Source: a virus. Taken from it: a stretch of DNA of 46,791 nucleotides. This document shows, piece by piece, positions 10,968 to 39,164 of the stretch. The notes beneath the pieces were generated by a model. The model made no database searches and was not told where the DNA came from. It saw only the letters and a list, made by a program, of their open reading frames with translations. The position numbers and the translations under genes are program-made. Numbering within the stretch: the first letter of the stretch is position 1; every line of letters begins with the position of its first letter. The stretch spans positions 1-46,791 of IMG/VR virus record IMGVR_UViG_3300049856_000164; one strand, given 5' to 3'.

Positions 10968-11016
10968 GAAAAACGGCCCGCATCGCCGGGAGAGGCGATC
11001 GGGCCGTGGTGAGCGG
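10968..11016 (-). terminator. Conserved hairpin element, copy B (before the capsid gene)
   Basis: On the minus strand the box CCGCTCACCACGGCC (11002-11016) runs into a hairpin (10974-11006) with outer stem CGGCCCG/CGGGCCG and inner stem ATCGCC/GGCGAT, followed by GTTTTTCGTTT and then the capsid ribosome site. It has the form of an intrinsic terminator for the scaffold transcript. The same box with different but still paired stems occurs before the terminase small subunit and the tailspike. Confidence 0.85.
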
Positions 11017-11073
11017 ACGTGTGGGTTGTCGTCGTGCCGTGGAGCTGGTACTACGGAGCGCTACATCATCGGA

Positions 11074-11883
11074 CTATCCGGCGGTGATCTCCGCTTCGGT
11101 GAGCCCGGCGCCTTTCGGATAGAAGACATCCTTGTCGGACAGGCGCCCGGTATCGCCCCCGCCACTGTTCGGCAGAATGAGCGGTCCTTCCCCGGCGGAC
11201 TTGCCCAGCCAGTGCATGAACGACACGATCGCGGGATGATCCCCGAAGCCCGTCTCGTTCAGGAACGCCTTGATCGTGGTCGCCCCCTCGGGGTTCACCT
11301 TCGCATACGCGACGTCGATCACCTGGCGCCCCTTGTCGATCGCCGCCTTCCGTTCCTCGGGGGTCTTGCCCAGGGCGGGGTCGGCGAGCGTCTTCGTCTT
11401 CCACCCGTCGATCACGGCTTGGGACTTCGCGTTCTCCGCGTCGAGCGTGGCCTTCACCTCGGCGGCCGTCGACTCCACGAGCTGCTGCGCCGCGTCGTTG
11501 GAGAGTCCCAGCGAGCGCGCAATGGCGGCTGTCCTCTCGAGTGCGGTGGCGTCCAGCGTGGCGTCTTTCGGGAGCGTGAGGGTGTACTTCCCATCGACTG
11601 GCGGCGTGTGCAGTGCCGTCAGCTTCTCCGCAGCGGCCTTCTCGGTCGCTGCCTTCTCGGCGGCTACCTTGTCGGCCGCCGCTTGCTCGCTCGCCGCCTT
11701 CTCGGCAGCGGCTTTCTGTTCCGGGGTCTGCGCAGCTGCAGCAGCGGCAGCAGCGTCGGCCGCGGCCTTCTCAGCGGTGGCCCTCTCGCTCGCAGCAACC
11801 GCGGCCTTCGCGGCGTCATCAGTTGCGGTGGCGGCAGCAGGATCAGCGACGGCAGTGCCGCCAGCAGTCGGATCGTCAACCAT
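11074..11883 (-). CDS. Scaffolding (capsid assembly) protein
   Basis: This 269-residue protein directly precedes the capsid gene. Residues from about 20 to 100 are a very Ala/Glu/Lys-rich helix with repeated AAEKAA units, followed by a domain with KTPEERKAAIDKGRQVIDVA and a C-terminal SFMHWLGKSAGEGP, as in capsid-assembly proteins of T7-type and related podoviruses. It would shape the procapsid and leave before packaging. I chose the ATG at 11883 because GAGG lies about 6 bases upstream; the ATG at 11895 has no site. It overlaps the upstream gene by 8 bases. Confidence 0.88.
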   Translation of the reverse strand: MVDDPTAGGTAVADPAAATATDDAAKAAVAASERATAEKAAADAAAAAAAAQTPEQKAAAEKAASEQAAADKVAAEKAATEKAAAEKLTALHTPPVDGKYTLTLPKDATLDATALERTAAIARSLGLSNDAAQQLVESTAAEVKATLDAENAKSQAVIDGWKTKTLADPALGKTPEERKAAIDKGRQVIDVAYAKVNPEGATTIKAFLNETGFGDHPAIVSFMHWLGKSAGEGPLILPNSGGGDTGRLSDKDVFYPKGAGLTEAEITAG

Positions 11884-12280
11884 CGTCGTCCTCATTGGTG
11901 TCGGGTTTCTCGCTCACCATGCCCGGCTCTTCGGCGGGCGCGGCGGCCTGCTCGGCCGCGTTCCGCTCCATCGCCTCGCGCTGCATCAGTAGGTACGCGT
12001 CCTGGTTCGTCGTGATAACCGCGATTTGCACCAAGTGGCCAATGTCCTGCTTCCCGGAGTAGTACTGGACGCGCTCAGGCCCATCACGCATCACGGACGC
12101 GGTTGTCCTGCACACATCGTCTCCGAGTAGCCACCACACAAACTCGCGGCCCTCGTAAGACGCCATTACGGCATTCACGAACGCCGCGACCCGGCGCTCG
12201 GCCTGTTTCTCTTTCTTGCCCGCGCGGCGGACCTGCTTCCCGCTGCTCGCGTTCTGCGTGAGGGCGCGGGGAGTCGTCAT
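11876..12280 (-). CDS. Bbp19-like virion protein
   Basis: This 134-residue protein has a basic N-terminus and the segment GREFVWWLLGDDVCRTT followed by YYSGKQDIGHLVQI and a terminal YLLMQREA, the pattern of the Bbp19 family found between portal and scaffold in BPP-1-type phages (G-R-x-F-x-W-L-L, then Y-x-x-G-x-x-x-x-G, then M-x-x-E). Its role in the particle is not settled in the family. It overlaps the upstream gene through ATGA (12277-12280) and the scaffold gene by 8 bases. Confidence 0.82.
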   Translation of the reverse strand: MTTPRALTQNASSGKQVRRAGKKEKQAERRVAAFVNAVMASYEGREFVWWLLGDDVCRTTASVMRDGPERVQYYSGKQDIGHLVQIAVITTNQDAYLLMQREAMERNAAEQAAAPAEEPGMVSEKPDTNEDDDG

Positions 12281-12528
12281 GAGCCGAGTTGGATGATGCG
12301 CGACTCACCGTTCCCGCCGTTCTGCTGCGCCGTGAACTTCTTCCGTGCGTACCGGATGGAATCGACGTGCTGCTCGTAATAGGCGACACGATGCGCCAAA
12401 TCCATGGCGATGATCGTTGTCTTGTTGAGCTGTTCGGCCAGCGCTTGCGCGACAGCAGTGTGGGCATCGAGGTCCACCCGCATCGCGGCAAGCTGCTCCT
12501 CGGGTGTCAGATATGGTTGTTCATCCAT
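12277..12528 (-). CDS. Small coiled-coil protein of the packaging operon
   Basis: This 83-residue protein is mostly helical (AHTAVAQALAEQLNKTTIIA) with a C-terminal Gln/Gly-rich tail. The ATG at 12528 is preferred over one at 12537 because GAGGA lies 8-9 bases before it. It lies between portal and the Bbp19-like gene. I recognise no family; a minor head or assembly role is inferred from position only. Confidence 0.65.
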   Translation of the reverse strand: MDEQPYLTPEEQLAAMRVDLDAHTAVAQALAEQLNKTTIIAMDLAHRVAYYEQHVDSIRYARKKFTAQQNGGNGESRIIQLGS

Positions 12529-12558
12529 TGAGCGCATCCTCAGTGTGATCCGCCGTGC

Positions 12559-14307
12559 TCATGCGGGGCTCCCGGCGCCGAGCAGACCGGCGACTTGGCC
12601 CCCGCCCGCACTGAGCAGCGACGCGAGCGCGTTGTCGCCCGTGGTCGGCGACTGTGAGAGGTCACGCACCGCCGGCGCGACCTTGGACGCCAGCTCGGCG
12701 GCCTGTGCGGCCTGCTGCTGCTGCGCGCGCGCCTGCCGGACCTCGGCCACCTTGTCGTCAGGCACCACGACGCGCGGCGGGACGCCGGTCATCTGCGCGT
12801 ACTCGTCGATCATCTGATCGCGGTCGACCTTGTCCCACACGGTCGGGTCCTCGGCCGCGAGGTTCGTCACGAAGCCGGTGAACCGCTCGAGCCCACCGGT
12901 GGCGACCGCGCGCTGCGCCTGCGCCATGACGGACTCGTACTCCACCCGCAGCGTCGCGCCGTCCAGCTCCGGCGGGGGCGGCGGCAGCATCCCCTTCCGC
13001 TCCATGATCGCGTAGGTGCGGTCGATCAGCGGGTGCAGAAGATCGGAATCCAGGCGCGTGAAGACGGGACCAAGCGCGAGGAGCTTTTCTTCCTTCCGCT
13101 CCATGATCTCCGTCGCGGTGATCTCCTTCCGGTCCAGGTTCTCCAGCATCAGGAAGAGATCGACGAAGTACGCCTGATCGATCAGCTGCTTCACTTCGGC
13201 CGTCTCCTGGCGGAGATCGTTGAGGTTGAGGTTCACCTGCATCGCCGGCCGGAATGACTTGTTCGGTCCTTCGGCGACATACGACACGTCGCCCGGCAGG
13301 ATGGAGAGCTTCGACGTGCGCATCTCCGGCGGGGCCACCATCGGCGGCTTGACCATCTTCTCGATCGCCTGGAGGCCGAACTTCTTCATGAGCTGGAGCG
13401 CCTTCACGTCGCCGAGCGCGGTCATGCCAGGACAGTCCGTGCCGTAGACGTCCTCGCCAGTCATCTCCCAGCGGGGCGCCAGCACGGGGAACTCGTCGTA
13501 GCCCGATTCGAGCAGGAACTGTTGGTCGCGGTTCGCCGTCTCGTAGTAGCACGAGGAAAACGGCTTGTACTTCGCGTGCAGCCGGTTCGGGTCATAATCA
13601 TCGTTCGGCTGCACGAGATGCGTGACCGGGATCCACTCCTCGTAGTTGCTGTTGTCCCATGCCGTCTTGATCGGGCCAGACACCTTCGACCAATCGAGGT
13701 CTCTGGCCGTCCCCGGCACGCGGGCGAACTGTCCGACGATCTGGCGCACGGTCATCTCGTACTCGCGCCCGAAGACGCGCACGTCGAGATTCTCGTCGTT
13801 GGCGAGGTAGTAGGAGCCGACGGGGTGATCGAAGCAGCGGATCACCGTGGCGTCGTCCTCGCGCACGAACATCGCGCCCGTGGCGAAGTTGCCGAGGTCG
13901 CCGTACACGACCGGGAGCTTGGAGTAGAGGTTGGACCGTTGGAACACAGTGAGCATCAGCGTCCGGACGATGTGCAACCAATCCTTCACCGGGCCGAACT
14001 CGCCCAGGTCGGGATCCGGCGGGGCGAGCCGGAACCACGGCCGCGCCGGGCTCGTCACGCCGGACATGAGCCCTGAGGAGAGCGTGCGACTGGCGAAGGT
14101 GGCCCGGGAGTCGATGATCTTCTGGTTCCGCCGATCGCCGCGGTTCCGGTCGCTCGTCTGGAAGCGGGTGCGCCGCGGCTTGATCCAGTCGGCGATCTCG
14201 CGATAGTGCGCGTCGAAGGACGACCGCTCGTTCTTCATCGCGGCCACCTGCTTGCGGGCGCGGGCAAGCGGCGTCTCCTGGGCGCGCACCACCGCAGTGG
14301 CCGTCAT
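12559..14307 (-). CDS. Portal protein (T7 gp8-like head-tail connector)
   Basis: This 582-residue protein has the head-tail connector signature: REIADWIKPRRTRF near the N-terminus, then RTLSSGLMSGVTSPARPWFR and a gating/wing region with KFGLQAIEKMVKPPM and later FTGFVTNLAAEDP. Length and order fit T7-type portals. It forms the dodecameric ring at the packaging vertex, binds the terminase and later the adaptor. It overlaps the upstream small gene by ATGA. The C-terminal 60 residues are Gln/Ala-rich, as is usual for the barrel and tail of this family. Confidence 0.95.
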   Translation of the reverse strand: MTATAVVRAQETPLARARKQVAAMKNERSSFDAHYREIADWIKPRRTRFQTSDRNRGDRRNQKIIDSRATFASRTLSSGLMSGVTSPARPWFRLAPPDPDLGEFGPVKDWLHIVRTLMLTVFQRSNLYSKLPVVYGDLGNFATGAMFVREDDATVIRCFDHPVGSYYLANDENLDVRVFGREYEMTVRQIVGQFARVPGTARDLDWSKVSGPIKTAWDNSNYEEWIPVTHLVQPNDDYDPNRLHAKYKPFSSCYYETANRDQQFLLESGYDEFPVLAPRWEMTGEDVYGTDCPGMTALGDVKALQLMKKFGLQAIEKMVKPPMVAPPEMRTSKLSILPGDVSYVAEGPNKSFRPAMQVNLNLNDLRQETAEVKQLIDQAYFVDLFLMLENLDRKEITATEIMERKEEKLLALGPVFTRLDSDLLHPLIDRTYAIMERKGMLPPPPPELDGATLRVEYESVMAQAQRAVATGGLERFTGFVTNLAAEDPTVWDKVDRDQMIDEYAQMTGVPPRVVVPDDKVAEVRQARAQQQQAAQAAELASKVAPAVRDLSQSPTTGDNALASLLSAGGGQVAGLLGAGSPA

Positions 14308-14558
14308 CCGCCGAGCAGCGTCTGGCGCTGCGTGGGGGCGGCCGACTCGAGGCCGGACGGACCCGTGAGCAGCGTGCCGCCCTTGGCCGGTGCCGCAGGC
14401 GCGAGGAGCCGGCGCCGGCGCGCGGCGGCGATCGCCGTCAGGCCGGCCTGGTCAGGCTGCGGCGCGGTCGGGAGCGACTGGATCGGCGGCGCGACGACGG
14501 GCGACCCGACGAGGCGCCCCGACGTCCAGCGGAGGAGGTTCTTCGCGAAGGCGGCCAT
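14304..14558 (-). CDS. Small basic protein upstream of the portal
   Basis: This 84-residue protein has a basic N-terminal helix (FAKNLLRWTSGRL), a Pro-rich middle and an Arg-rich stretch near AIAAARRRRLLAPAAP, typical of short proteins that precede portal genes in BPP-1-like operons. No domain is recognised. The ATG shares one base with the stop of the upstream DUF4177-like gene (TGATG) and its own stop overlaps the portal ATG (ATGA), so it is translated as part of the operon. Confidence 0.7.
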   Translation of the reverse strand: MAAFAKNLLRWTSGRLVGSPVVAPPIQSLPTAPQPDQAGLTAIAAARRRRLLAPAAPAKGGTLLTGPSGLESAAPTQRQTLLGG

Positions 14559-14770
14559 CAGCTGCGCTTCCCGCCAACGATCATCGGCATCGCCGGCATG
14601 ATCATGGGTGCCGGCTTCTTCCGCTTGCAGTGGACGAGCACCCCGTCCGGATGCTCGTCTTTCGCCCACGCTTCCCAGCCGTCCTTGCCGAGCTGGCCGA
14701 GCCCGTTGACCATGACCTGGTCGCCGTGCCCGTGGATCTTCGCGGTGAGGTATTCCCACTCGTCATGCAT
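14558..14770 (-). CDS. DUF4177-like small protein
   Basis: This 70-residue protein begins MHDEWEYLTAKIHGHGD and continues with LGQLGKDGWEAWAKDE; the pattern W-E-Y...L-x-x-L-G-x-x-G-W-E is that of DUF4177, a small beta-beta-alpha fold of unknown function. The C-terminus is Lys/Pro/Met-rich. The ATG at 14770 has an AAGGAGA site about 9 bases upstream. It lies among packaging genes, with no other hint of role. Confidence 0.75.
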   Translation of the reverse strand: MHDEWEYLTAKIHGHGDQVMVNGLGQLGKDGWEAWAKDEHPDGVLVHCKRKKPAPMIMPAMPMIVGGKRS

Positions 14771-14783
14771 CGGCAGCGTCTCC

Positions 14784-15251
14784 TTAGCTCGCGTCGTAGC
14801 CGGACATGGCGACCGACTCGACCGAGCCCGCGACGCCCGCGGCGGCGAACTCCAGCGTCATCGCCGTGTTGAGCGAGCCGGGGATGTTCAGGCCGGTGAG
14901 GATGAACTGGAGCGTCTTGTTCACGTCCAGGATGAAGCGCTGGGTCCACAGCACGGTGCCGCCACCGCTCGCGCCGTCCCGAAGGCTCACGTCCATCGCG
15001 CCCGCCTGCGCCGTGGCGCCGGTGGAGAAGATCGCGCAGATCGACGTGCAGACATGCCGCGCCGCCGCGTTGGCCGCCTTGCTCGTTGATGCTTGCGCCG
15101 CGAAGCCAACCGAGGCTGCCTGCGCCCACTGGCCGGGCTGCACGACGATGAGCGCACCGGCCGCTTCGCTGATGGCGGCGATGAGCGACGCGGCCGAGGC
15201 GGCACGGGCCGGGACGACGGTGCCGGCCACCTGCTCCAGTTCCAGAATCAT
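14784..15251 (-). CDS. Putative virion protein with beta-sandwich C-terminus
   Basis: This 155-residue protein has a helical Ala-rich N-terminal half and a beta-rich C-terminal half with SLRDGASGGGTVLWTQ and TGLNIPGSLNTAMTLEF, a pattern I associate with small virion proteins near terminase genes, in which 'LNIPGS.NTAMTLEF.A' is a conserved core. It may be a capsid or collar component. Its ATG overlaps the GNAT stop (ATGA). Naming it more closely would need a profile search. Confidence 0.7.
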   Translation of the reverse strand: MILELEQVAGTVVPARAASAASLIAAISEAAGALIVVQPGQWAQAASVGFAAQASTSKAANAAARHVCTSICAIFSTGATAQAGAMDVSLRDGASGGGTVLWTQRFILDVNKTLQFILTGLNIPGSLNTAMTLEFAAAGVAGSVESVAMSGYDAS

Positions 15252-15802
15252 CGGGAGACCTCGCGGAGATACGCCCGCTCGTACAGCGCGAACCCGCGCT
15301 TCGTCAGCGTGCGCTCGTTCACGGGCGACTTCGCTTCCAGCGTGAAGTGGATCCACTCCGCGTGCGCCTCGCCGTGCGCGATGAACGCCTCGAGCAACAG
15401 CAGTCCGGCGCGCGTCTGCCGATATTCGGGGATCACCCACCAGAACATCTCGCTCAGCACGCGGATGGCCGGGTTGTACGGGTGCGGCGCGAGGGCACCG
15501 CCGATGAAGCCCACCGGCCAGCGGGAGTCGAGCCCGACGTCCACGTCGGCGATAAAGAAGGGCTGCGCGTCGATCAGCTCGGCCAGGAGGTAGCGCGCGG
15601 TCTTCTCGTCCGGGTAGAGCGACTGCTGCGTGCCGTAGAACTCGGCGAAGTCCGCGAGCTGGTGCGCGAGCCACAGCACGTCATGCGACGCGGCCGGCCG
15701 CACTCGCACCTCGGCGCCACGGGTCCGGGCGTGGGCCAAGATGCGGGCGGCGAGGCATCCCAGCGTCGGGAGCTCGGCAGCAACCACGGCGGCGGCGGTC
15801 AT
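15248..15802 (-). CDS. GNAT-family N-acetyltransferase
   Basis: This 184-residue protein has the GNAT layout: RVRPAASHDVLWLAHQLADF near the start, a beta-strand PFFIADVD, then VGFIGGALAP and the acetyl-CoA loop MFWWVIPEYRQTRAGLLLLE, ending in KRGFALYERAYLREV (the usual 'GF...Y' end). It would transfer an acetyl group to an unknown amine. GNAT genes next to terminase genes recur in podoviruses; the substrate could be a host or virion protein. It overlaps the terminase large subunit by ATGA. Confidence 0.82.
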   Translation of the reverse strand: MTAAAVVAAELPTLGCLAARILAHARTRGAEVRVRPAASHDVLWLAHQLADFAEFYGTQQSLYPDEKTARYLLAELIDAQPFFIADVDVGLDSRWPVGFIGGALAPHPYNPAIRVLSEMFWWVIPEYRQTRAGLLLLEAFIAHGEAHAEWIHFTLEAKSPVNERTLTKRGFALYERAYLREVSR

Positions 15803-17310
15803 GAGAGCATCCCGGCAGATCCCCGGTCGGCCAGCGGCTCGTAGTCGCTCGCCATCTTGCCGCCGGCCGAGGCTTGTGCGGTGCCGAGGGCCGGCATGTC
15901 GGGCAGCGCGAAGGTCTGGAGCAACGCTTCCCAGAGGTCCGGGCTGGTGCCGTTGAGGAGCACCTTGATCTGCGCCTTCTCGATGACGCGGAACTTGCCG
16001 CCCTCAAACCAGTAGGTCGCCGCGGTCGCTTCACGCACGATTTCGGTGAGGCCCTGCGGGAGCGAGCCACCGCGCTTGATCCACTCGGCGCCCTCAAAGT
16101 AGAGCTCCGACCGCTTGTTGAAGTAGCGCGGGTTGTTCGGGCTCCCCGACGCGTTCACGGAAAAGAGCGACACGCCGCCGAGCAGGCAGGAGTCGATCAC
16201 GCCGGACGCCCAGCCGCCGGTATCGTCAATGCATTCCAGCTCGGAGCCCCACGCTTGTTTGCCCTTCATGAGCCGGCCGGCGATCGTGTGCGACCGCTGC
16301 CCGCGCAGCACCACGGGGTCGAACGAGACCAACCCCTGCCGCGGGAAGAGCACCGTCCGGTCATCGCCGAACCGGGCGACGTCGACGCCGATCCGCTTCT
16401 GCACGTACTTGAAAGTCTCTTCCTCGACCCCGCGCCCGATCGCCTCGTTCACCTCGTCGGCGGAGAGCAACGTGTTGAGGCCGCCCGGCGGGAACTTGCC
16501 CAGGATGAACGACATCACCCACGGGTTGTCACGCCCGTAGAGGCCGATCTGCTCACGCGCCCATTCGGCCAACACACGCGGCGTGCGCTTCGGATCGTCC
16601 GGGTCCGCCGTGATGTTGATCAGATGCCAGAGGTGCCGGTGCGGGCCGGACGCTTGGTAGAGGTAGCCGTTCTGGCTCGTCGTGTTGCCCGCCTGGACGA
16701 TCTTGCCCCACCGGCAGTTGGAGAGCCCCTGCTCGGCCGAGCGCCCGACGGCCGGCGGCATGTCGCCGGTCTCGTCCAGCAGGTAGAGGATGAACGGGGC
16801 GTGCAACCCGGAGAGCGTGCGGCCCATCGCGTCCGGGTCCGCCTTCTTGGCAAAGGATCGCGCACCGAGGAACCACGTCTTCGGATGCTGGCGGGAGAAG
16901 ATGCTCTCCGTCGTCATGTCAAAGGCGCGCTGCAGCAGCTCCGACCGGCCATACCAGACGGCGAACTCCTTCCAGAGTCCGTTCTTCAGGTTATCGCCGG
17001 TGATCGATACGGCCGCCCCGTTCGGGTGCTGGTCCTGATCCGCATAGCAGAGGAGGAAATTCCACCCGCACCACGACTCGACGGTGGACTTCCCCGGGCC
17101 GGCGCACGCGGCCAGCGCGATGCGCTGCGTCTTCGGGTCGGAGCTCGCGAAGGCGGCGAGCGCGTCCTGCTGCCACGCGTCCGGCTCCGTGCGGAACAGG
17201 TCGCGCACCATCTGCGCGGGATCGGCGCGCCAGAGCCGGATGCGGTCGACCGCGGCGTCGGCAGTGCTCATCGGGAGGGCGAGCGCGAGAGCGAGGACGA
17301 GCTCACGCAT
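15799..17310 (-). CDS. terL: Terminase large subunit
   Basis: This 503-residue packaging motor has Walker A ALAACAGPGKST (about 66-76), Walker B FILYLLDETGD (about 173-183) and a C-terminal RNase H-like nuclease with RIGVDVARFGDDRTV (D310, D316/D317) and ECIDDTGGWASG (D362/D363). It cuts and pumps genome DNA into the procapsid through the portal. The ATG at 17310 overlaps the small subunit by 8 bases. The first 13 residues form an odd hydrophobic stretch before an internal Met at residue 14, so the true start may be that ATG at 17271. The circularly permuted assembly is consistent with headful packaging. Confidence 0.95.
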   Translation of the reverse strand: MRELVLALALALPMSTADAAVDRIRLWRADPAQMVRDLFRTEPDAWQQDALAAFASSDPKTQRIALAACAGPGKSTVESWCGWNFLLCYADQDQHPNGAAVSITGDNLKNGLWKEFAVWYGRSELLQRAFDMTTESIFSRQHPKTWFLGARSFAKKADPDAMGRTLSGLHAPFILYLLDETGDMPPAVGRSAEQGLSNCRWGKIVQAGNTTSQNGYLYQASGPHRHLWHLINITADPDDPKRTPRVLAEWAREQIGLYGRDNPWVMSFILGKFPPGGLNTLLSADEVNEAIGRGVEEETFKYVQKRIGVDVARFGDDRTVLFPRQGLVSFDPVVLRGQRSHTIAGRLMKGKQAWGSELECIDDTGGWASGVIDSCLLGGVSLFSVNASGSPNNPRYFNKRSELYFEGAEWIKRGGSLPQGLTEIVREATAATYWFEGGKFRVIEKAQIKVLLNGTSPDLWEALLQTFALPDMPALGTAQASAGGKMASDYEPLADRGSAGMLS

Positions 17311-17929
17311 GGGTCCCGGCCGGCTGGTCCCAGCTCCGTGCGAGAAGCGCCTCGAGCGACTCCGAGAGCGAGTGCTCCGTCTTGTCCTTCAGCAGCCCGT
17401 GATAGCGCATCAGGAGGCCGACCGCGGCCTCCTTCGACACGAGCTTGATCTTGAGCCCGAACTTGCCGTATTCGATGCTAGCGATCGCGCGGCGCACATG
17501 CGTCGGCATCTGGTGCACAGGGAGCAGCTTCCCCTCCGCGTCGTACAACTCGCCCGGGTCGAGCAGGGCGGCGTAGGAGAGCTCCTCGATCGTCCGCGCG
17601 GCCGTGGCGTCGTACTGTTCGAGGATCGGAGCCCGGAGCGCGGTGACCAACTCCACGACGGCCGGGTCCTTCAGGAGCCGCGGGCCGTTCGTGGCACAGG
17701 TGTCCTCCGTGCACCCCGGGAACGCTTCGCGGTACGCCGCCGCGGCGTTCGGCCGGCCGGCGTAGATGTAGGCGAACTGCTTCTGCTTTTCGGTGAGCGT
17801 GGCGCCGATCTCGCCCAGCACCTCGGCCGGCGACGGAATGACGGGGGCCGCAGCACGCTGGCGCGCGCGTTTCCGTGCGGCGCCCTTCTTCGCAACCTTC
17901 TTCCGCGTGCCGTTCGTCGATGCGGCCAG
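17303..17929 (-). CDS. terS: Terminase small subunit, probable CTG start
   Basis: The reading frame gives a 208-residue protein if begun at CTG 17929. GGGAGG (17935-17940) lies 5 bases before that CTG, and no ATG, GTG or TTG lies near it; the first conventional start is GTG at 17821, which has no ribosome site and would discard a 36-residue Lys/Arg-rich N-terminus of the kind seen in small terminase subunits. The core has LTEKQKQFAYIYAGRPNAAA and AYREAF, typical of the TerS DNA-binding domain that recognises the packaging site. The CTG start is inference from the ribosome site. The conserved hairpin element A lies just upstream. Confidence 0.85.
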   Translation of the reverse strand: MAASTNGTRKKVAKKGAARKRARQRAAAPVIPSPAEVLGEIGATLTEKQKQFAYIYAGRPNAAAAYREAFPGCTEDTCATNGPRLLKDPAVVELVTALRAPILEQYDATAARTIEELSYAALLDPGELYDAEGKLLPVHQMPTHVRRAIASIEYGKFGLKIKLVSKEAAVGLLMRYHGLLKDKTEHSLSESLEALLARSWDQPAGTHA

Positions 17930-17940
17930 ACTGACCTCCC
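17927..17940 (-). promoter_or_regulatory. Ribosome site that points to a CTG start
   Basis: GGGAGG at 17935-17940 is one of the best ribosome sites in the late region and sits 5 bases before CTG at 17927-17929. The site follows hairpin copy A exactly as the capsid ribosome site follows copy B, which supports it as the real initiation region of the small terminase gene. Confidence 0.65.
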
Positions 17941-17945
17941 GGAAA

Positions 17946-17996
17946 CGAAAAACGGCCCGCGCCTCTCGGGAAGAGAGACCGGGCCGTGGTGAGCGG
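17946..17996 (-). terminator. Conserved hairpin element, copy A (before terS)
   Basis: On the minus strand the box CCGCTCACCACGGCC (17982-17996) leads into a hairpin (17953-17986) with outer stem CGGCCCG/CGGGCCG and inner stem CTCTC/GAGAG, then GTTTTTCGTTT. It has the form of an intrinsic terminator at the border of the accessory and late blocks. Upstream (17997-18055) I see only a weak promoter-like pair, TTGCGC and TAGGCT, spaced 17. Confidence 0.85.
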
Positions 17997-18055
17997 TGCT
18001 GCGGGTTGTGACTGCTGTACTTAGCCTACGTCAGAACGACCGATCGCGCAATAGT

Positions 18056-18238
18056 TTACGGGATTCTTGCGAGGAGTGGGATAGAGGCGACGCACAAGAG
18101 CGACGCGAACAGGCCGCCTCGCACGAGCCGGCGCCCCAGCACAGGCCGATCGTGCTCTACCTCGACTCCGCGATACATGACGCATTGCGCGAGGCCGAGA
18201 ACTACGAAGAACAGGAGACTGCGGGTCATGGCGTTCAT
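18056..18238 (-). CDS. Small two-segment membrane protein
   Basis: This 60-residue protein has two hydrophobic segments, about residues 7-21 (SLLFFVVLGLAQCVM) and 43-58 (LFASLLCVASIPLLAR), joined by a charged loop. The ATG at 18238 has GAGG 5 bases upstream. It is the last gene of the accessory block, just before the late block. Short membrane proteins at this point may modify the host envelope or take part in lysis timing, but nothing in the sequence decides this. Confidence 0.65.
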   Translation of the reverse strand: MNAMTRSLLFFVVLGLAQCVMYRGVEVEHDRPVLGRRLVRGGLFASLLCVASIPLLARIP

Positions 18239-18249
18239 GCTACCTCGGC

Positions 18250-18552
18250 TCAGGTTGGTGCGCTAGACAGGAACGCAAGCGCCTCGTCGGGGCTCATGTT
18301 CTGGTCCCGCATGTGGATGGCCTCGGCGGGGGTGACCTCGGCCAGATACTTCCGTCCGTCCGGCCAGCGGATCACGAAGACGCGCATCCCGCACTCCGCG
18401 TTCCCGGCGCCGACGCGATGCTGGCAGACGAAGGTGTCGTGGCTCATGAGGGCCGCGTTCGTCCGCACGCGGTGGCCGCGCGGGCACTCGATCGGCTCGT
18501 GCGGCCCGAGGTGGAGGTGCGGGCGGACGATGAAGCGGCCGGGGGACGTCAC
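18250..18552 (-). CDS. Cys/His-containing protein of unknown function
   Basis: This 100-residue protein contains CPRGHRVRTN, VCQHR and ECGMRVFVIRW, a probable zinc-binding arrangement, and ends in a short helix (SPDEALAFLS). The start is GTG at 18552 in a GTGA overlap with the upstream gene, the coupling form used repeatedly in this genome. No family is recognised. Confidence 0.7.
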   Translation of the reverse strand: MTSPGRFIVRPHLHLGPHEPIECPRGHRVRTNAALMSHDTFVCQHRVGAGNAECGMRVFVIRWPDGRKYLAEVTPAEAIHMRDQNMSPDEALAFLSSAPT

Positions 18553-19130
18553 CGCCGCCGCCTCCACGGCGAACCGTTGGTGAGCAGCCACACGCGCGCC
18601 GGGAGAAGCAGGTTGAGCCAGCGCATGTGCAGCCGGAAGCAGATGTAGTGCGGGCTCAGTCGAATGCGCAGCGGAATTGACTCTCTGAGTACGCGACACT
18701 TTCCGTCGTCGCCATAAGCGAGATTGCCCCAGACGTAGTGAGGGCGCGCGCTTCGCTCGATGACCAGCGGCTCCATCCCGGCGGGATGCAGGAAGACGCA
18801 GCTTGCCACGGTGCTATGCGGCCGCCAGATGCGGAGCGGGCGCGTAATGCGGACCTTCACGTTGACGACATGCCTCACGTTATCGCCGTCGAGCCAGCGT
18901 TGCAGCCCATCCGTGTCATCCGTCACGCCATCGCCAGCGATACCAATCCACGTCGGCCAGACCCGGGCATATGCCTCGATTCTGCGAACGGTCTCCGCAT
19001 TTTGCTCTGGCGTGACGACGGGCCACTCTCTACCAGGCCGATCATAGCGCAGCCAGTAGTACGCAAGCGTGCCGCCGAACACGCACCACGCCGCGAGATA
19101 CGCGAGCGAGAGCCAGGTCCACATGCTCAT
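18549..19130 (-). CDS. Membrane-anchored protein of unknown function
   Basis: This 193-residue protein has one N-terminal membrane segment (about residues 4-26, LSLAYLAAWCVFGGTLAYYW), a middle part with IGIAGDGVTDDTDGLQRWLD, and a C-terminal half rich in Arg, Trp and Leu. The ATG at 19130 sits behind a GGAGG site and overlaps the upstream stop (ATGA). The phrase GDGVTDDTDGLQ resembles the first turn of pectate-lyase-type proteins (GDGxTDDTxAxQ), but no beta-helix follows, so the likeness may be chance. Confidence 0.65.
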   Translation of the reverse strand: MSMWTWLSLAYLAAWCVFGGTLAYYWLRYDRPGREWPVVTPEQNAETVRRIEAYARVWPTWIGIAGDGVTDDTDGLQRWLDGDNVRHVVNVKVRITRPLRIWRPHSTVASCVFLHPAGMEPLVIERSARPHYVWGNLAYGDDGKCRVLRESIPLRIRLSPHYICFRLHMRWLNLLLPARVWLLTNGSPWRRRR

Positions 19131-19678
19131 CCCCCCTCCTGCGCCGGCCCGCCCTTCGTGATCGCTTCGATCGCCGCCTGCACGTCGGCCGGTAGGTCGG
19201 TCGGCATGACAGCTACCCCCTCCGACAGCTTCCCGGTGACGCGGACGTGGTGCTGTTCGGCGGGGCTCCACTCCGGGTGGTCGCGGATCAGCGTCTCGCG
19301 CCGCTTCTTCTCGCGCTCGACCGCCTGGTCGTAGAGCTTCTGGGCGGTCCGCATCTGCGGGACGCGCGCCTCGTAGAAGCCGAGCTTCGACTGCACGCCC
19401 GTCGCGATGCCGGTCGTCCGGTTGAGCTGGTCGACCAGGGTGCGGATCCACCCGTCGTGCTTGCCCAGCTCCGCCGTGTTCGCCTGCATCGTCTGGTCGC
19501 GGAGCGTGAGCACTTCGCCGAGCTGGTTGAACTCGCGGCGCTGGTGCGCGATGCCGAGCCAGCGGCGGAGAAGGCGCGCGAGCCAGCCGTAGGTCAGCTC
19601 GTGCGCGGCGCTGGCCTGGGCGGCGGAGAGCGGGACCGGCTCGGCCGGCGCGGTGTCGGGAATCGGGGTAGTGGTCAT
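19127..19678 (-). CDS. Coiled-coil protein of unknown function
   Basis: This 183-residue protein is mostly helical and charged: an Ala/Leu helix with a short Trp-rich stretch (YGWLARLLRRWLG), then long heptad-like segments (LGEVLTLRDQTMQANTAELG) and a basic segment EREKKRRETL. It is coupled by ATGA at both ends. I recognise no family; a scaffolding or partner-binding role in the early complex is only a guess from the coiled coil. Confidence 0.65.
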   Translation of the reverse strand: MTTTPIPDTAPAEPVPLSAAQASAAHELTYGWLARLLRRWLGIAHQRREFNQLGEVLTLRDQTMQANTAELGKHDGWIRTLVDQLNRTTGIATGVQSKLGFYEARVPQMRTAQKLYDQAVEREKKRRETLIRDHPEWSPAEQHHVRVTGKLSEGVAVMPTDLPADVQAAIEAITKGGPAQEGG

Positions 19679-19869
19679 CGCGTCACGGGAGGGGGATAGA
19701 AGCCGGCTTTGCCGAGGACGTGGGCAAGCGTCCGGGCGAGCTTGTCGTGCTCGATCGCGGTGCCGTTCTGATGCCCGAACTTCTCCGCGTACTTCGTGGC
19801 GGACTGCTCGTACTGCATGCGGGCGAGGTGGATCGCCTGCTGTTCTGCGCGGGTCAGGTAGACTCTCAT
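19675..19869 (-). CDS. Small helical protein
   Basis: This 64-residue protein is helical and mixed in charge (TRAEQQAIHLARMQYEQSAT, then KLARTLAHVLGKAGFYPPP). It overlaps both neighbours by ATGA. Nothing identifies a function. Confidence 0.65.
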   Translation of the reverse strand: MRVYLTRAEQQAIHLARMQYEQSATKYAEKFGHQNGTAIEHDKLARTLAHVLGKAGFYPPPVTR

Positions 19870-20312
19870 TCGGCGTCGACCTCTTCGGTGGGATTGGCGG
19901 CTAGCTCGGTCACGATGCGCGCGACCTCGACGGTGAGGCCGGGATTCCCGGCGTGGATGCTCAGGGCATCGTGCCACTCGCCGGAATTGCGCTCGCGATA
20001 CTCCACGCGATCCATCAGCGCCGGCTCGCGCGACGGAACGACGCGCCACGTCACGCCGTGACTGTCCACGAGTTCGCGCGGCCGCGTCACCTTCGGCGCC
20101 CACGGCCCGCGCTTCTCCCTGCGGTCCTCTTCGATCTTGGTCACGAGCGAGTCGAGCAGCCACGATAGCTGCTCCTCGATGAGGCCGCGCACATCATCGT
20201 CGCGACGTCTATCCACCTTGGCGCGGAGCCAGGCCGGATCGAGCTGGAGGCGAATCTCGTAGAACTCGCCGTCCGGAGTGACCCTCGCCACCTCGTGCTT
20301 CACGGTCGTCAT
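19866..20312 (-). CDS. Conserved-looking phage protein of unknown function
   Basis: This 148-residue protein opens with a beta-like segment (VKHEVARVTPDGEFYEIRLQ), then helices with IEEQLSWLLDSLVTKIEEDR, and a second beta-rich part (GVTWRVVPSREPALMDRVEY). Start ATG at 20312 overlaps the nuclease stop (ATGA). It may work with the VRR-NUC protein directly upstream; that is inference from coupling alone. Confidence 0.65.
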   Translation of the reverse strand: MTTVKHEVARVTPDGEFYEIRLQLDPAWLRAKVDRRRDDDVRGLIEEQLSWLLDSLVTKIEEDRREKRGPWAPKVTRPRELVDSHGVTWRVVPSREPALMDRVEYRERNSGEWHDALSIHAGNPGLTVEVARIVTELAANPTEEVDAE

Positions 20313-20860
20313 TCGGGTCTCCAGATCAGGTGACCGCTCTCATCGACGACGAGCGGGTAGCGCGCGAGCAGCCAGGCGAACAGGTCGACGTCCGTGCCCA
20401 GCACGTAGAGCCAGCCGCAGGCGTCCATGTCCTCTTGGAAGTCGCGCTGCGCCGGGGACTGCTCGCCGGTCGCCGTCTTCGCTTCCCAGGCGAACCCGAG
20501 CCCGCGCGCGCGGTGGAAGTAGAAGCGGTCGGGCACGCCCGGGGTGATGTACTTCGCGTGCCGCGGCTGGCTCGTGTTGATGACGCGGAAGCCGAGGGCG
20601 CGGAGTTGCTTGTCGGCGCGGGCCACGACCTCCTTCTCGAGCCGCGCGTCGTCCGCGCCATCAGCCAGCCGTAGATCGTCAAGCAGCGGATGCGTGCCAT
20701 CGGGCCGCATGTTCCGCGCGACCGACCCCCCGATCGGCTGTGCGGCCTGTGCGGTGCCCTGCTTGATCTGTTCGATCAGCACGGCTTTCTCGATCAGATA
20801 CTCGGGGATCTGCTGCGCCCGGAGTTGCGCCCGGAGCTCGTCGGCCGTGAAGAGGCTCAC
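20309..20860 (-). CDS. VRR-NUC domain nuclease
   Basis: This 183-residue protein has an N-terminal helical part and a VRR-NUC nuclease domain from about residue 70: LEKEVVARADKQLRALGF, then GVPDRFYFHRARGLGFAWEAK (PDR with an acidic residue, then E-x-K) and SPAQRDFQEDMDACGWLYVL (the Q-x-x-F and late Gly). The pattern PD...ExK...Q matches this restriction-like fold used for structure-specific DNA cutting. The start is GTG at 20860, overlapping the previous stop as GTGA. It probably processes replication or recombination intermediates. Confidence 0.88.
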   Translation of the reverse strand: MSLFTADELRAQLRAQQIPEYLIEKAVLIEQIKQGTAQAAQPIGGSVARNMRPDGTHPLLDDLRLADGADDARLEKEVVARADKQLRALGFRVINTSQPRHAKYITPGVPDRFYFHRARGLGFAWEAKTATGEQSPAQRDFQEDMDACGWLYVLGTDVDLFAWLLARYPLVVDESGHLIWRPE

Positions 20861-20976
20861 GAGGCCCTCCGGGTGTACTCGCAGGCGCACCGACGTACTC
20901 CGCGGACGGTCACGGGTGCGCAGCACGGGCCGTGGTGCCAGAGCCAGCGGGCGAGAGTGTGCAGCACGTCACGCAT
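20857..20976 (-). CDS. Very small Cys-containing protein
   Basis: This 39-residue protein (MRDVLHTLARWLWHHGPCCA, ending VRRCACEYTRRAS) has a Trp-rich helix and four Cys in two pairs, a possible zinc knuckle. It overlaps the upstream gene by 8 bases and the nuclease gene by 4 (GTGA). The tight coupling on both sides is the main reason to accept it. Confidence 0.55.
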   Translation of the reverse strand: MRDVLHTLARWLWHHGPCCAPVTVRGVRRCACEYTRRAS

Positions 20977-21190
20977 GGCCGGCGCCTCCAGCGGGAGGGA
21001 TGGCGGCGAGAAGTTCGGCGGCGCGGTCTGGTTCCAGATCGGCATAGACGACCCAGCGATGGTCGCAGCCCTCCCAGTCGTAGCAGCGCAGGCAGTCGCC
21101 GCACGAGTCGCAGTGGTCGCCACAGCGAGGCTCCGCTTCCACGCGGGCATCCGGCAGGCCATCGGGGCGGTCCACGATCTCGGCGATCAT
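20969..21190 (-). CDS. Cys-rich zinc-binding protein
   Basis: This 73-residue protein holds a dense cluster PRCGDHCDSCGDCLRCYDWE and then GCDH, about seven Cys in 25 residues, surely a metal site, followed by an acidic helix. Coupled by ATGA to the upstream gene. Small proteins with such clusters are frequent in phage accessory regions; function unknown. Confidence 0.7.
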   Translation of the reverse strand: MIAEIVDRPDGLPDARVEAEPRCGDHCDSCGDCLRCYDWEGCDHRWVVYADLEPDRAAELLAAIPPAGGAGHA

Positions 21191-24538: not shown

Positions 24539-24556
24539 TATTACCTTCCCGCCATG
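24539..24556 (+). promoter_or_regulatory. -10 box of a leaderless regulator transcript
   Basis: TATTAC (24539-24544) lies 9 bases before the ATG at 24554, so transcription would begin at or within a base or two of the start codon, and no ribosome site is present. A weak TTGTCA is upstream at a poor distance (14). This fits a leaderless message such as that of lambda cI from PRM. Confidence 0.5.
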
Positions 24557-24769
24557 CCCATTCGCTGGAAGCTGGCCGAGGTCGCCGCCCGGAAGCACCT
24601 GACCGCCTACGCCCTCGCTGGCGAGACCGGGATTTCCCGCCAGACGCTCTACAAGCTCATGCGCCAACCCGAGGTCACCCGCGTGGACGGCGAGACGCTG
24701 GCGACCCTCTGTCGCGTGCTGGGCGTGAAGGTCGGCCAGCTCCTCGAATACCTCCCCGACGAGGACTGA
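24554..24769 (+). CDS. XRE-family transcription regulator (Cro/CI type)
   Basis: This 71-residue protein is a single helix-turn-helix domain: LAEVAARKHLTAYALAGETG, then ISRQTLYKLMRQP and ETLATLCRVLGVKVGQLLEY, with the standard 'G-I-S...T-L-Y-K-L' recognition helix and closing 'L..L..VL'. There is no peptidase or multimerisation domain. It diverges from the accessory block and probably binds the operator sites in the 84 bp between them, controlling that promoter and its own. Confidence 0.88.
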   Translation: MPIRWKLAEVAARKHLTAYALAGETGISRQTLYKLMRQPEVTRVDGETLATLCRVLGVKVGQLLEYLPDED

Positions 24770-29259: not shown

Positions 29260-30546
29260 TCATGATGCCACCACAGGTTGCGGCCCCCGTTCCCCGGGGG
29301 CTTTTTCGTGCGCGTCGGCTCGGGACACTTCAGGGACACTTCGCGTCGAATCCTGCGGCGTCCGTTCGGGCGCTTTCGTTTCGACGGAGCCGGCCGCGCG
29401 CTCCATTCGCTCGCTCCGCCGCTTCAGGTACTTCTTCGCCTGCTTCATGTCGCGATCGCCGATGAACTCCATGCCGAGCCGGTCATCGCCCGTCCGGTCG
29501 GCCACGTTGCCGGCGACCATCTTCCGGAAGCCGTGCAGCGCGCGACGGGCCTTGTGGGCAATGCCGGCGCGCGCCTCGGCCCCGACGTACCGGGAGCCGT
29601 CCTTGTTCTTCCCGCCGTAGAGCTGGCGATGGAGCGAGGCGTAGCGGTACGGCTCGTCGTCGCCCTCGTCGCCGCCGTGCGCGAACAGCACCCAAGGCCC
29701 CGCATAGCCGGCGCGCTGGCGCCAGTAGCGCGCCGTCTCGAGCGCCGCGACGGCGTCCCAGGTCATCGGCTGCGCGAGCTCACGCCGGTTCTTCTGGTAG
29801 CCGGCCGGCCAGATGAAAAGCGCCTCGTCGGCGTGCACGTCCGGCCACGCGAGGTGCAGCGCGGCGTTGGCGCGGACGCCCTGATGCCCGGCCAGCATGA
29901 GCGCGACGTGGGCACGCCACGTCCGCCACGACTGCGCCGGCAGTTGGGCCAGAATGGCGAGGAACTCGCCCTCGGTGTACTCCTCCGGCTCATTCGCCTC
30001 TTCGCCCTCGGTGGTCTGCCAGCGGAAGAGCGCGAGCTCGTTGGAGGTGACGAGCTTCCGCTGCTGGCCCCAGTTGTAGACGATGCGCGCCACGCTGATG
30101 ATGCCGCGCGTCTGGTTGGCGGACTTCCCGGCCGCCTTCCGAGCCGCGTAGAACTGGTCGACGTGCAGCAGGGTGGTCTCGTCCACCCGCGTCCGCTCGC
30201 CGCGGAAGTGCATCCACTTCCGCCACCGCTCGGTGTAGTTCTGGCGCGTCTTCACCCGGCGACTCGTGAACGCTTGGCTCTCGCTGTACGCCTTCCAGAG
30301 CTGCGCGTGCGTCGTCTCCGGCCGCGCGCCCTGGCCCGTCATCCGCTCGGCATGGTAGGCGTCGCCCCACGCGATCGCATCCTTGCGACCCTGCCGGGTG
30401 AGCGGGAACGTGCGCTTCCGCGAGACGCCGCGGCCGTCCTTGTACTGGACGACGACGCTATCCGCCTTCGGATCCTCGAGCACCCGCACGCGATCGTCGG
30501 CGCCCTTCGCGCCGAGCTGGCGCAGTGTCTTCCGGGCGGCCTTCAT
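29260..30546 (-). CDS. int: Tyrosine site-specific integrase
   Basis: This 428-residue recombinase has an N-terminal arm-binding part, a SAM-like core-binding domain (about 78-175) and a catalytic domain with R225 (GHQGVRANAALHL), K252 (AGYQKNRR), H338 and R341 (LHGFRK), an Asp at the usual His/Trp position (IGD, near 364) and the nucleophile Y373 (KKYLKR). It inserts the circular genome into the host chromosome at the tRNA-like core beside its 3' end. The start is ATG 30546, overlapping the small upstream gene by ATGA. The C-terminal 55 residues lie beyond the domain and translate attP DNA. Confidence 0.95.
   Translation of the reverse strand: MKAARKTLRQLGAKGADDRVRVLEDPKADSVVVQYKDGRGVSRKRTFPLTRQGRKDAIAWGDAYHAERMTGQGARPETTHAQLWKAYSESQAFTSRRVKTRQNYTERWRKWMHFRGERTRVDETTLLHVDQFYAARKAAGKSANQTRGIISVARIVYNWGQQRKLVTSNELALFRWQTTEGEEANEPEEYTEGEFLAILAQLPAQSWRTWRAHVALMLAGHQGVRANAALHLAWPDVHADEALFIWPAGYQKNRRELAQPMTWDAVAALETARYWRQRAGYAGPWVLFAHGGDEGDDEPYRYASLHRQLYGGKNKDGSRYVGAEARAGIAHKARRALHGFRKMVAGNVADRTGDDRLGMEFIGDRDMKQAKKYLKRRSERMERAAGSVETKAPERTPQDSTRSVPEVSRADAHEKAPGERGPQPVVAS
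29283..29306 (+). terminator. Intrinsic terminator reading rightward, inside the 3' end of int
   Basis: Plus strand GCCCCCG-TTCCC-CGGGGGC followed by TTTTT. It lies about 45 bp after the tRNA-like core and in the same direction, as the terminator of a host tRNA gene would. It may have been carried along with the core, or it may protect the integrase region from rightward transcription. Confidence 0.75.
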
Positions 30547-35791: not shown

Positions 35792-35870
35792 ACTAGGTAG
35801 AACCCACCCCGTTACGCCCCTGCGTCGGTGCCCCTTCGGGAGAAATCTTTGTGGAAACTTTGTGCATCCG

Positions 35871-35899: not shown

Positions 35900-35960
35900 T
35901 CTTGTGCGAGTATGAGAGGATTTTAATGCAAACGTTTATCGGAGACGCTACGATGCGGGC

Positions 35961-36307: not shown

Positions 36308-39097
36308 TCACCAGCAGGGGATATACCGCGTGGTGCCGTTATCGATGATCGGCACCCACTTCGTCGGGTTGCCGGCCACCGGGGCGTTCGTGAGCGTGCC
36401 CGCCGCAGCGGCCGCGCCGTTCGTGAGCGCGACCAAGGAGGTGAGCAACGTGGCGCTCCCGACCTTGATGATGCCGGTGTTCGTGAAGACGTGCGTCGGC
36501 GTCCCCCAGAAGGCGGCGAAGGTGCCGTCGACCTTGCCGTTCACGGCGTGATAGAACTCGATGTCGCCATTCACGCGCGCGATACGCAGCTTGGAGGTCG
36601 CCGCGAAGCTCTGGTGCCACAGATCGGCCGTCGTCGACTGCGTCGCATTTGTGGCCGCGTAGACGCTACCTTCGCCCCAGAGCGTACCGACCGAGCCGTA
36701 GGACCCGGAGTCACCGAACCGAATCTGCACGACGGACGAGGCCGCGCCCTCGAGCACCAGCTCCTGCCGGATCGGGAAACTCCGGGGCAGGGCGGAGCCG
36801 GTGTTGTAGTTGCCAGCGAACAGGATCGCCGCCGCCGCCGAACTGTCCACGTTATATGCCTGCGTGAGTAGTCCCTCGGCCCGGTTGTTGGTGACCATCG
36901 ACTTCACGCAACTGGCCGGAACGGCGATGCCAATCGCGTAGCCGACCGCGACGTCGTTGCCGACGTTGTTCCCGCTGATCAGGCACCCTTCACAGGCCGA
37001 GAGGTCGATCGCGGTGTACGTGTTCGTGAGGATCGTCCCGCCGTTGTAGACGACGTTCCCGACCACGGAGTTGGACGAGCCGCTGTTGAGGCAGAGCCCG
37101 GAGCCGCCGGAGTTGGTGATCGTGTTCCCGGTCAGCGTGCAGCGGTAGGCCCCGGAGATGTCGATCCCGCGGAGTCCCGACGCCTGGATGACGTTGCCCG
37201 TGATCATGCAATCTGTGATGCCGCCCCAGGCCACGGACACGCCGCTGGCCGAGCCGCCGGCGTTCTGGGAGAGCACGACGGTCGTCGCGTTCGTCACCGA
37301 CAGGATGTACGCGCCGACGGGGATCGTCCCGCCGCTCATGATCGTCCCTTCGTCGTTCTTCACGAAGCCGGCAGTCGCCGACGTGACCGTGGGGGACGCC
37401 GCGATCGTGACCGCATCGGCGACCGAGTGCGGGCTGATCACCGGCAGGGTACCGATGCCGTAGGTGCTGGGGCTCTTGATCGTGTTGCCGGTGATCGTGC
37501 ACCGCACCAGCGGCGCGCGGAGCGAGATGCCGGAGCCGGTCACCGTGTTGATCGAGTTCCCCGAAATGGTGTGACCCTCGCAGGGAATGCCGCCCAGCAC
37601 GATGCCGGACTTGGCGCCCCCCGACGCGGTGTTGCCGACGACGGTGCAGTCGGTGCAGTTCTGGATGGCGACCGCGCCCACGGTCAGCGTCGTATCGTCC
37701 TGCACGGCGCCCCAATCCTGCACCGTGTTCCCGACGACTGCGCCGCGGACGCAGGACTGGAGGTAGATCCCGGTGCCGCCGACCGCCGTGACCAGGTTGT
37801 TCGCGACGCGATTCTCCCGCGCGGCGATCGACGTCGCGCCGGCGGTCCGGTAAATCATGATGCCGTAGCCGTTGTTGTTCCCGGCCCCGGTCTTCGCGCC
37901 CGAGCAGACGTTGTCCGAGATGTCGGACTGCGCCATGTCGTAGCAGCCGATATTCGTCTGCACCGCCACCGACTGGCACTTGTTGCCCGTGATCTTGATG
38001 CGCTTGGAGCCGTCCGCGACGGTGCCGTTGCCGTTCACCTGGATGTCCGACGACAGCCCGGCGCCGATGTAGCCGTTCCCGCTGAACAGGTTGTCTTCGA
38101 TGAAGACGTCGTCGCAGCCGTAGACCTGGACGCCGCCGGCGTAGAGGGTCCCCGTGGCGGGGCTGGTGCAGCCCGTGAAGGAGCAACGCCGCACGGCGAC
38201 CTTCGTGCACGCCGAGAACACGACGCCGATCGCGCAGAGGCCCTGGATCGCGATCCCTTCGACGGCGATGTTCGTCTTGCTCGTCGCCGAGAGGGCGTAG
38301 CCGTTCGCGACGGTCACCTGGAAGATCGTCTGCCCCGCGATGCCCCGGAGCCGAACGTTCGACGGGATCAGGAGCGCCGCCGTCTGCTTGTAGGTGCCCG
38401 GCGGGGCCAGCACGTCGCCGCCCGTCGCCTGCGCGCCGGCGACGGTCATCGCGTTCTGCAGTGTGGTCGTCGCGTCGTTCACGCCCGTCGAGATCACGAC
38501 CCCGAGCGGCGCGTAGTCGAGCACGTTGAAGACGGCGTTGTTGACGAGGTACGCGGAGAGGGTGTTCACCGTCCGCGACTGGCCGGGCAGCGTGACCGCG
38601 CTCGAGGAGCCCACGGCCGACATCGTGAAGCCGGTGCCGGTGCCGGTGAGCACGAGCCCGGCGGTGGGATCCGGCAGGTTGAGGTTGTACGCGGCCGGGT
38701 TGATCGTCGCGCCCAGCTTGAGCGAGCGATCGACCTGGTCCTGGAGCTGCTGCGCGATCATGAGGAGCGCGTCGAGCCCCGTCTCCACGTCGGCCGGCGA
38801 GTTCCGCCCCTGGTTCTTGAGGTCGATCGTCTGCTTGAGCGGCCGATTGCGGCGGATCGTGAGCAGATCGCCCGACGTGCCGGCGTTGCCGAGCGTGACG
38901 GCACCGCCCGACGTGTTCCCCACGCCAGAGACGGCGTAGTCCAGCGGGTAGCTCAGGATGGTTTCGACGCCCGTCGCGACGGCGCGGCGGATGACCTGCA
39001 CGTCCGCTGCGTCCAGGATGCGGAACGTGTACGGGTAGACGAGCGTCGCCCCGTTCAGGGTGTAGTCGTTGCGGTTGGTCGTCGTCGCGACAGTCAT
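36308..39097 (-). CDS. Tailspike with T7-fibre N-terminus and beta-helix body
   Basis: This 929-residue protein has a T7 tail-fibre-like attachment domain (about 1-135: YTLNGATLVYPYTFRILD, then TIRRNRPLKQTIDL and ETGLDALLMIAQQLQDQVDR), a pectate-lyase-type right-handed beta-helix (about 185-760) with many turns such as CTITGNTIK, CTLTGNTIT, SVVGNVVYN and CLISGNNVG, and a C-terminal cap ending NGTTRYIPCW. It binds and probably degrades a host surface polysaccharide. The active site cannot be picked out by eye. It ends the late block and follows hairpin copy C. Confidence 0.92.
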   Translation of the reverse strand: MTVATTTNRNDYTLNGATLVYPYTFRILDAADVQVIRRAVATGVETILSYPLDYAVSGVGNTSGGAVTLGNAGTSGDLLTIRRNRPLKQTIDLKNQGRNSPADVETGLDALLMIAQQLQDQVDRSLKLGATINPAAYNLNLPDPTAGLVLTGTGTGFTMSAVGSSSAVTLPGQSRTVNTLSAYLVNNAVFNVLDYAPLGVVISTGVNDATTTLQNAMTVAGAQATGGDVLAPPGTYKQTAALLIPSNVRLRGIAGQTIFQVTVANGYALSATSKTNIAVEGIAIQGLCAIGVVFSACTKVAVRRCSFTGCTSPATGTLYAGGVQVYGCDDVFIEDNLFSGNGYIGAGLSSDIQVNGNGTVADGSKRIKITGNKCQSVAVQTNIGCYDMAQSDISDNVCSGAKTGAGNNNGYGIMIYRTAGATSIAARENRVANNLVTAVGGTGIYLQSCVRGAVVGNTVQDWGAVQDDTTLTVGAVAIQNCTDCTVVGNTASGGAKSGIVLGGIPCEGHTISGNSINTVTGSGISLRAPLVRCTITGNTIKSPSTYGIGTLPVISPHSVADAVTIAASPTVTSATAGFVKNDEGTIMSGGTIPVGAYILSVTNATTVVLSQNAGGSASGVSVAWGGITDCMITGNVIQASGLRGIDISGAYRCTLTGNTITNSGGSGLCLNSGSSNSVVGNVVYNGGTILTNTYTAIDLSACEGCLISGNNVGNDVAVGYAIGIAVPASCVKSMVTNNRAEGLLTQAYNVDSSAAAAILFAGNYNTGSALPRSFPIRQELVLEGAASSVVQIRFGDSGSYGSVGTLWGEGSVYAATNATQSTTADLWHQSFAATSKLRIARVNGDIEFYHAVNGKVDGTFAAFWGTPTHVFTNTGIIKVGSATLLTSLVALTNGAAAAAGTLTNAPVAGNPTKWVPIIDNGTTRYIPCW

Positions 39098-39114
39098 GGT
39101 CCAGGTCTCCGGAA

Positions 39115-39164
39115 ACAGAAAAAGCCAGCCTGCCCCGAGGTGGGCAGCTGGCCGTGGTGAGCGG
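39115..39164 (-). terminator. Conserved hairpin element, copy C (before the tailspike)
   Basis: On the minus strand the box CCGCTCACCACGGCC (39150-39164) leads into a hairpin (39124-39152) with outer stem GCCAGC/GCTGGC and inner stem TGCCC/GGGCA, then CTTTTTCTGTTT and the tailspike ribosome site GGAGA. The stem sequence differs from copies A and B but is still fully paired. The string CACGACGACAA upstream is shared with copy B. Confidence 0.85.

Follow-up and report, generated by a model that had tools for sequence, protein, structure and literature searches.

The virus record IMGVR_UViG_3300049856_000164 (46,791 bases, 68.7% GC; the whole of this stretch is called the window) carries on its minus strand three exact copies of a 15-base box, each leading into a hairpin, a tract of five T residues, a ribosome site and a start codon. 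The copies, termed A, B and C, stand in the leaders of the genes for the terminase small subunit (terS), the major capsid protein (MCP) and a tailspike. A sequence-only reading of this DNA had reported the box at these three sites with the same run of features, and had placed the copies before terS, capsid and tailspike genes; the sites proved exact, the stems and T-tracts that it named are present, and the gene assignments agree with PHROG matches. The features are as follows.

17982-17996, minus strand: box A, CCGCTCACCACGGCC, by exact match
17952-17987, minus strand: hairpin A, by folding; outer stem ACGGCCCG/CGGGCCGT, inner stem GTCTCTC/GAGAGGC, a bulged G on the 3' side
17948-17952, minus strand: T-tract A, TTTTT then CGTTT, from the sequence
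17930-18055, minus strand: leader A, presumed to run from a putative upstream stop (TAA, 18056-18058) to the terS start
17303-17929, minus strand: terS, 208 amino acids, with a probable CTG start after GGGAGG; the PHROG terminase small subunit match covers 17303-17821, and the start is read from the sequence
11002-11016, minus strand: box B, CCGCTCACCACGGCC, by exact match
10973-11007, minus strand: hairpin B, by folding; outer stem as in A, inner stem ATCGCC/GGCGAT, a bulged G
10969-10973, minus strand: T-tract B, TTTTT then CGTTT, from the sequence
10953-11073, minus strand: leader B, 121 nucleotides (nt), between the protease/scaffold gene and MCP, from the sequence
9921-10952, minus strand: MCP, 343 amino acids (phrog_212)
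39150-39164, minus strand: box C, CCGCTCACCACGGCC, by exact match
39123-39153, minus strand: hairpin C, by folding; outer stem GGCCAGC/GCTGGCT, inner stem TGCCC/GGGCA, a bulged G
39119-39123, minus strand: T-tract C, TTTTT then CTGTTT, from the sequence
39098-39219, minus strand: leader C, 122 nt, before the tailspike gene, from the sequence
36308-39097, minus strand: tailspike/tail fibre protein, 929 amino acids (phrog_1640, 7458 and 1171)

The start of terS is probably the CTG at 17929 and not an ATG, given that the frame is open to that point and the GGGAGG site lies before it. This start, the length of the leaders (121-126 nt), the bulged G and the likeness of leaders B and C over their whole length are additions to the sequence-only reading.

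The box is the only 15-mer that occurs three times in the genome. Some three-copy 15-mer also arose in 6 of 60 shuffled genomes, so that the count alone is not decisive; the register of the box with the hairpins is. In a 96-column alignment of the three leaders, all 15 box columns are identical compared with 26 of the 81 columns outside it, and an identical run of this length was reached in 8 of 200,000 column shuffles. The first four bases of the stem (GGCC) belong to the box, the remainder of which lies just 5' of the stem. Copies B and C share GCACGACGACAA at equal spacing, confirming an upstream likeness that had been claimed for these two, and ACAA is found 9 nt before the box in all three copies. 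Outside the box, leaders B and C are 0.55 identical over their whole length, compared with 0.30 over the first 90 coding bases. Since the likeness spans the leader and stops short of the coding start, the copied unit is the intergenic cassette, and the three elements are best read as duplicated copies of a single leader cassette of about 120 nt with an in-line terminator.

The stems were reported to differ in sequence while remaining paired, and this was examined on a MAFFT alignment of the three leaders with the structure read from the folds, against 500 shuffles and slid versions of the structure. On the structure-consistent alignment 97.6% of cells are paired, four pairs are changed on both sides (six such cells), and none of the 500 shuffles reached the observed pairing and covariation values; slid versions of the structure paired only 35-48% of cells. 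Two positions of the inner stem show three different standard pairs across the three copies, and every hairpin retains the single G that bulges from its 3' side. Pairing in the stems is thus maintained by compensatory changes. Over 101 nt the fold energy is clearly below that of shuffled sequence for A (z -2.1) and B (z -2.6), but not for C (z -0.4).

The stems are GC-rich, with predicted energies of -22 to -28 kcal/mol, and pass directly into T5, which is the form of an intrinsic (Rho-independent) terminator. Scores of the d'Aubenton-Carafa type, in which positive values are terminator-like, reach 24.9, 24.3 and 33.3 when each full stem is taken together with its T-tract; the size of the A and B scores depends on the stem boundary, falling to about +1 when the stems are drawn two pairs shorter. 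A simple terminator scanner did not list A and B, although that scanner does not describe bulged stems. A genome-wide count of hairpins with an energy of -12 kcal/mol or better and T5 directly behind them gave four, namely A, B, C and a plus-strand hairpin at 29302, whereas shuffled genomes gave a mean of 1.05 and a maximum of four; A-C exceed the cut-off by a wide margin, and the late (minus) strand has no other strong intrinsic terminator candidate. Identification of the three elements as intrinsic terminators is therefore well supported at the level of sequence and predicted fold. The plus-strand terminator at 29302 (GCCCCCGTTCCCCGGGGGC TTTTT) is situated close to the 3' end of integrase, which is encoded on the other strand.

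Fewer than 30 bases, ribosome site included, separate the T-tract from the start codon, and the end of the stem lies about 20-25 nt from that codon in A, B and C. An ordinary promoter cannot fit into this interval, and the downstream mRNA would consequently have to come through the hairpin. The proposal that the elements are terminators dividing the late block into separately controlled units accordingly stands as to the terminators and, as worded, does not fit as to the division: by their layout, these are in-line leader terminators, attenuating or conditional, and not clean unit ends ahead of a new promoter. No Rfam leader or riboswitch scored above its gathering threshold in the window. Pairing of the leader or coding start with the box or the 5' arm gave duplex energies within the shuffle range in all three copies, which argues against a self-contained attenuator. 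A resemblance of the box to the boxA (nut) site was dropped: boxA has a U-rich, GCTCTTTA-like core, which is absent here, and only CGCTC is shared by eye.

To judge from its sequence, the phage is an epsilon15-like temperate podovirus. Its capsid and portal proteins share roughly 35-55% identity with those of epsilon15, phiV10 and podophages of Caulobacter and Pseudomonas, a profile scan located an integrase gene, and one Cro/CI-type helix-turn-helix gene lies at 24554-24769. An exact 127-base terminal repeat (window 1-127 = 46665-46791) marks the record as a complete genome, and may stem from either a circular assembly overlap or real ends. MCP relatives were found in 91 phage records, but no near relative of the whole phage appeared in a megablast of 9000-21000 against phages or in a portal scan of genome contigs.

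Homologues in related phages had been named as a test by covariance-model search, with a divided outcome: the box-tagged element is not general in the group, while terminators of the same anatomy with unrelated stems are widespread. Among 148 related loci, a hairpin and T-tract directly before the ribosome site and start codon were found at tail tubular A in 49 of 82 loci, and in 36 of 65 epsilon15-like phages after removal of near-duplicates (e.g. L023, L025, L038, L041 and L063). Dereplicated counts at other genes were 1/21 for terL, 2/65 for portal, 2/71 for MCP, 0/49 for cement and 0/19 for tail990, or 5/225 in total. The stem sequences at tail tubular A are unrelated between many of these phages and the position is kept, with 15-25 nt between stem end and start codon in 35 of 36 relatives; these leaders have a median length of 66 nt, about half that of the leaders in the window. 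Epsilon15 itself has an annotated terminator before gp10. Capsid-to-tail in-line leader terminators are, on this sequence comparison, common to T7 and many epsilon15-like phages, and the set in the window appears as a variant of them placed at other genes (terS, MCP and tailspike). None of its members lies between capsid and tail tubular A, a stretch which holds the following feature.

9415-9445, minus strand: hairpin D, before the gene at 8871-9401, with no T-tract and no box (d score -23.7)

The position of hairpin D resembles the slot of the epsilon15 gp9/gp10 terminator, of which it is perhaps a decayed counterpart. An HNH_3 endonuclease gene, possibly a mobile endonuclease, occupies 7016-7576 on the plus strand, in antisense orientation, within the intergenic gap immediately ahead of tail tubular A; most relatives have the leader terminator in this slot.

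The box-tagged set is specific to this lineage. Outside this genome, the exact box with a T-tract gave only coding-chance matches in IMG/VR, and blastn of element B against phages gave none. Looser box patterns detected one related phage population (L150, L177 and L181), in which the element lies before the protease/scaffold gene; at 15200-15320 (plus strand) of L150 a box-like CCGTTCACCAGGCC / CCGTTCACCA is followed by a hairpin of -25 kcal/mol, T8, CGGAG and ATG. By covariance model this match is weak (E 0.74 in a search of 1.1 Mb and 0.024 against its own record), while its position, hairpin and start codon give independent support, and it is regarded as a suggestive single copy. As in window copies B and C, CACGACGACA also occurs upstream in L150, at another spacing. 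No match to the element was present in L187 and L188, which are relatives of the L150 phage. Two further candidates were rejected: a looser-pattern match in L182 is probably a chance terminator after a gene end, and a covariance-model match in L016 (E 0.013) is antisense to the late genes and has no box.

Other repeated elements are found in the group. Epsilon15 has ATTACCTNNNAGGTAAT-like palindromes before gp3 and the tailspike gene, with a variant before terS, all carrying a repressor-site annotation. Palindromes of similar form stand before gp3 and the tailspike gene of phiV10. These indicate that late blocks in the group can carry a repeated regulatory element; they are not evidence that the box is an operator. 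ATATGTGGTT and GGTAATA-like words follow the palindrome before gp3 in both phages and before the phiV10 tailspike gene. By eye, a hairpin lacking a T-tract also seems to adjoin the ribosome site in the tailspike leaders of epsilon15 and phiV10.

Taken together, the elements are read here as in-line intrinsic terminators in late-gene leaders, with the box probably binding a factor that sets read-through; a probability of about 0.6 is assigned to this reading. An RNA polymerase making terS, capsid or tailspike mRNA would have to pass the element, which would then set the amount of transcription entering that block. The constancy of the box suggests that it is bound by whatever sets read-through. 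Four bases of the box are part of the stem, so that a factor bound to box RNA, or to the polymerase copying the box, would be in a good position to keep the stem open and could give read-through at all three sites together.

Several points weigh on the other side. The sequence-only reading had also offered conditional terminators opened by a phage antiterminator, and the anatomy fits this; however, no N-, Q- or p7-like antiterminator was recognised among the genes scanned with PHROG and Pfam profiles, a scan that did not take in every small open reading frame and would miss an undescribed family. No sigma-70-type promoter was found in a scan of 1-20000, a range outside which copy C lies. Were the terminator ahead of the capsid gene partial and fixed, capsid output would be reduced compared with that of the genes upstream; a promoter or a read-through factor would be needed to avoid this, and the analysis detected neither one. 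The box-tagged set also has no close relative in which its conservation could be tested, its sole relative being the one weak by covariance model. A stronger version, in which the phage encodes a factor from a family so far undescribed that binds RNA or polymerase, recognises the box and opens the three terminators at once, switching on packaging, capsid and tailspike together as a three-site coordinated antitermination regulon, is at present doubtful.

Among the alternatives, the elements may be passive attenuators of fixed ratio, that is, partial terminators copied among late leaders which tune amounts with no dedicated factor, the box being kept by recent common origin or by unrecognised terminator requirements. 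At comparable positions, relatives and T7 have terminators whose stems are unrelated and which have no box in common, and clostridial operons set ratios by internal terminators (PMC9045158). Common origin alone, however, does not explain a box that is invariant while most of the remaining columns differ, and a simple attenuator before the capsid gene makes little sense without a promoter; this account is considered unlikely. Late promoters are held to be about equally unlikely. Here a phage-controlled promoter would lie in the leader upstream of the hairpin, with the box near the RNA start and the hairpin mainly protecting the mRNA 5' end. The extra length of the leaders over those at tail tubular A in relatives would provide room, leader A contains TTGCGC-N17-TAGGCT, and the repeated epsilon15 palindromes before terS, gp3 and the tailspike gene are operator-like. 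The promoter scan of 1-20000 nevertheless was negative, -10-like words differ in spacing among the copies, and with T5 following a stem of -28 kcal/mol such transcripts would stop after no more than about 75 nt if not antiterminated.

A system of the lambda Q kind would place a promoter, a loading site and a neighbouring terminator at all three late units, with a phage protein opening the terminators. The arrangement ahead of the late genes (leader, constant site, terminator) agrees with this, and Q genes are known in relatives such as Shamal and YA3 (PMC7326022); given that no scanned gene matched the Q, N or p7 families, and that lambdoid phages have a single site of this type against three here, such a system is judged improbable. 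Least probable is an RNA-processing or translation-control hairpin, to which the conserved bulged G, the adjoining ribosome site and the apparent T-less hairpins of the epsilon15 and phiV10 tailspike leaders would be suited, since the T-tract is kept in all three copies, a total of 14-15 base pairs is short for RNase III and the ribosome site lies outside the stem.

On the preferred reading of in-line terminators with a factor-binding box, late phage genes would have terminators as leaders and not just as ends. Should the box prove to be a read-through site, the three copies would form a small coordinated antitermination system, with the factor to be sought among the unnamed small genes.

Elements of partly similar design have been described elsewhere. 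The SAS and ESAS elements of Cluster K mycobacteriophages are likewise short and repeated; they adjoin the start codons of certain genes only, and inverted repeats occur in some of them. The SAS is the ribosome-site region itself, present in 11-19 copies at non-structural genes only, and ESAS contain SigA-like promoters (PMC3203893, PMC11373665). No T-tract is described for these elements, and the window set does not belong to them, consisting of three copies of a 15-mer unrelated to their 13-bp GGGATAGGAGCCC-type start sequence (PMC3203893). Lambdoid Q antitermination (pR'-tR') also places a terminator between the late start region and the late genes, but at one site and with a need for Q, which was not recognised in the window genes scanned. 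Clostridial ABC-transporter operons have internal terminators that pass part of transcription and so set ratios (PMC9045158), although these are host operons with no repeated box. Closer are the leader terminators at tail tubular A of epsilon15-like phages, which resemble those of the window in anatomy and spacing, and differ in having unrelated stems, another gene slot, shorter leaders and no box.

The nearest characterised counterpart is Tphi of T7, between capsid gene 10 and gene 11 (tail tubular A), where a hairpin is followed by T6, GCTGAAAGGAGG and ATG, with AGGAGG as ribosome site and the terminator position 18 nt before the gene 11 start codon. Expression of T7 genes 11 and 12 depends entirely on read-through of Tphi (PMC5592923). 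The window elements show the same layout, with T-tract, ribosome site and start codon in succession and no room for a promoter. In contrast to them, Tphi is a single copy downstream of capsid, acts on T7 RNA polymerase and has no repeated box. The Tphi layout is hereby extended to a large group of temperate podoviruses which, as far as seen, have no T7-type polymerase of their own. A Tphi-like leader terminator was thus already known; the three box-tagged copies at other genes are new here.

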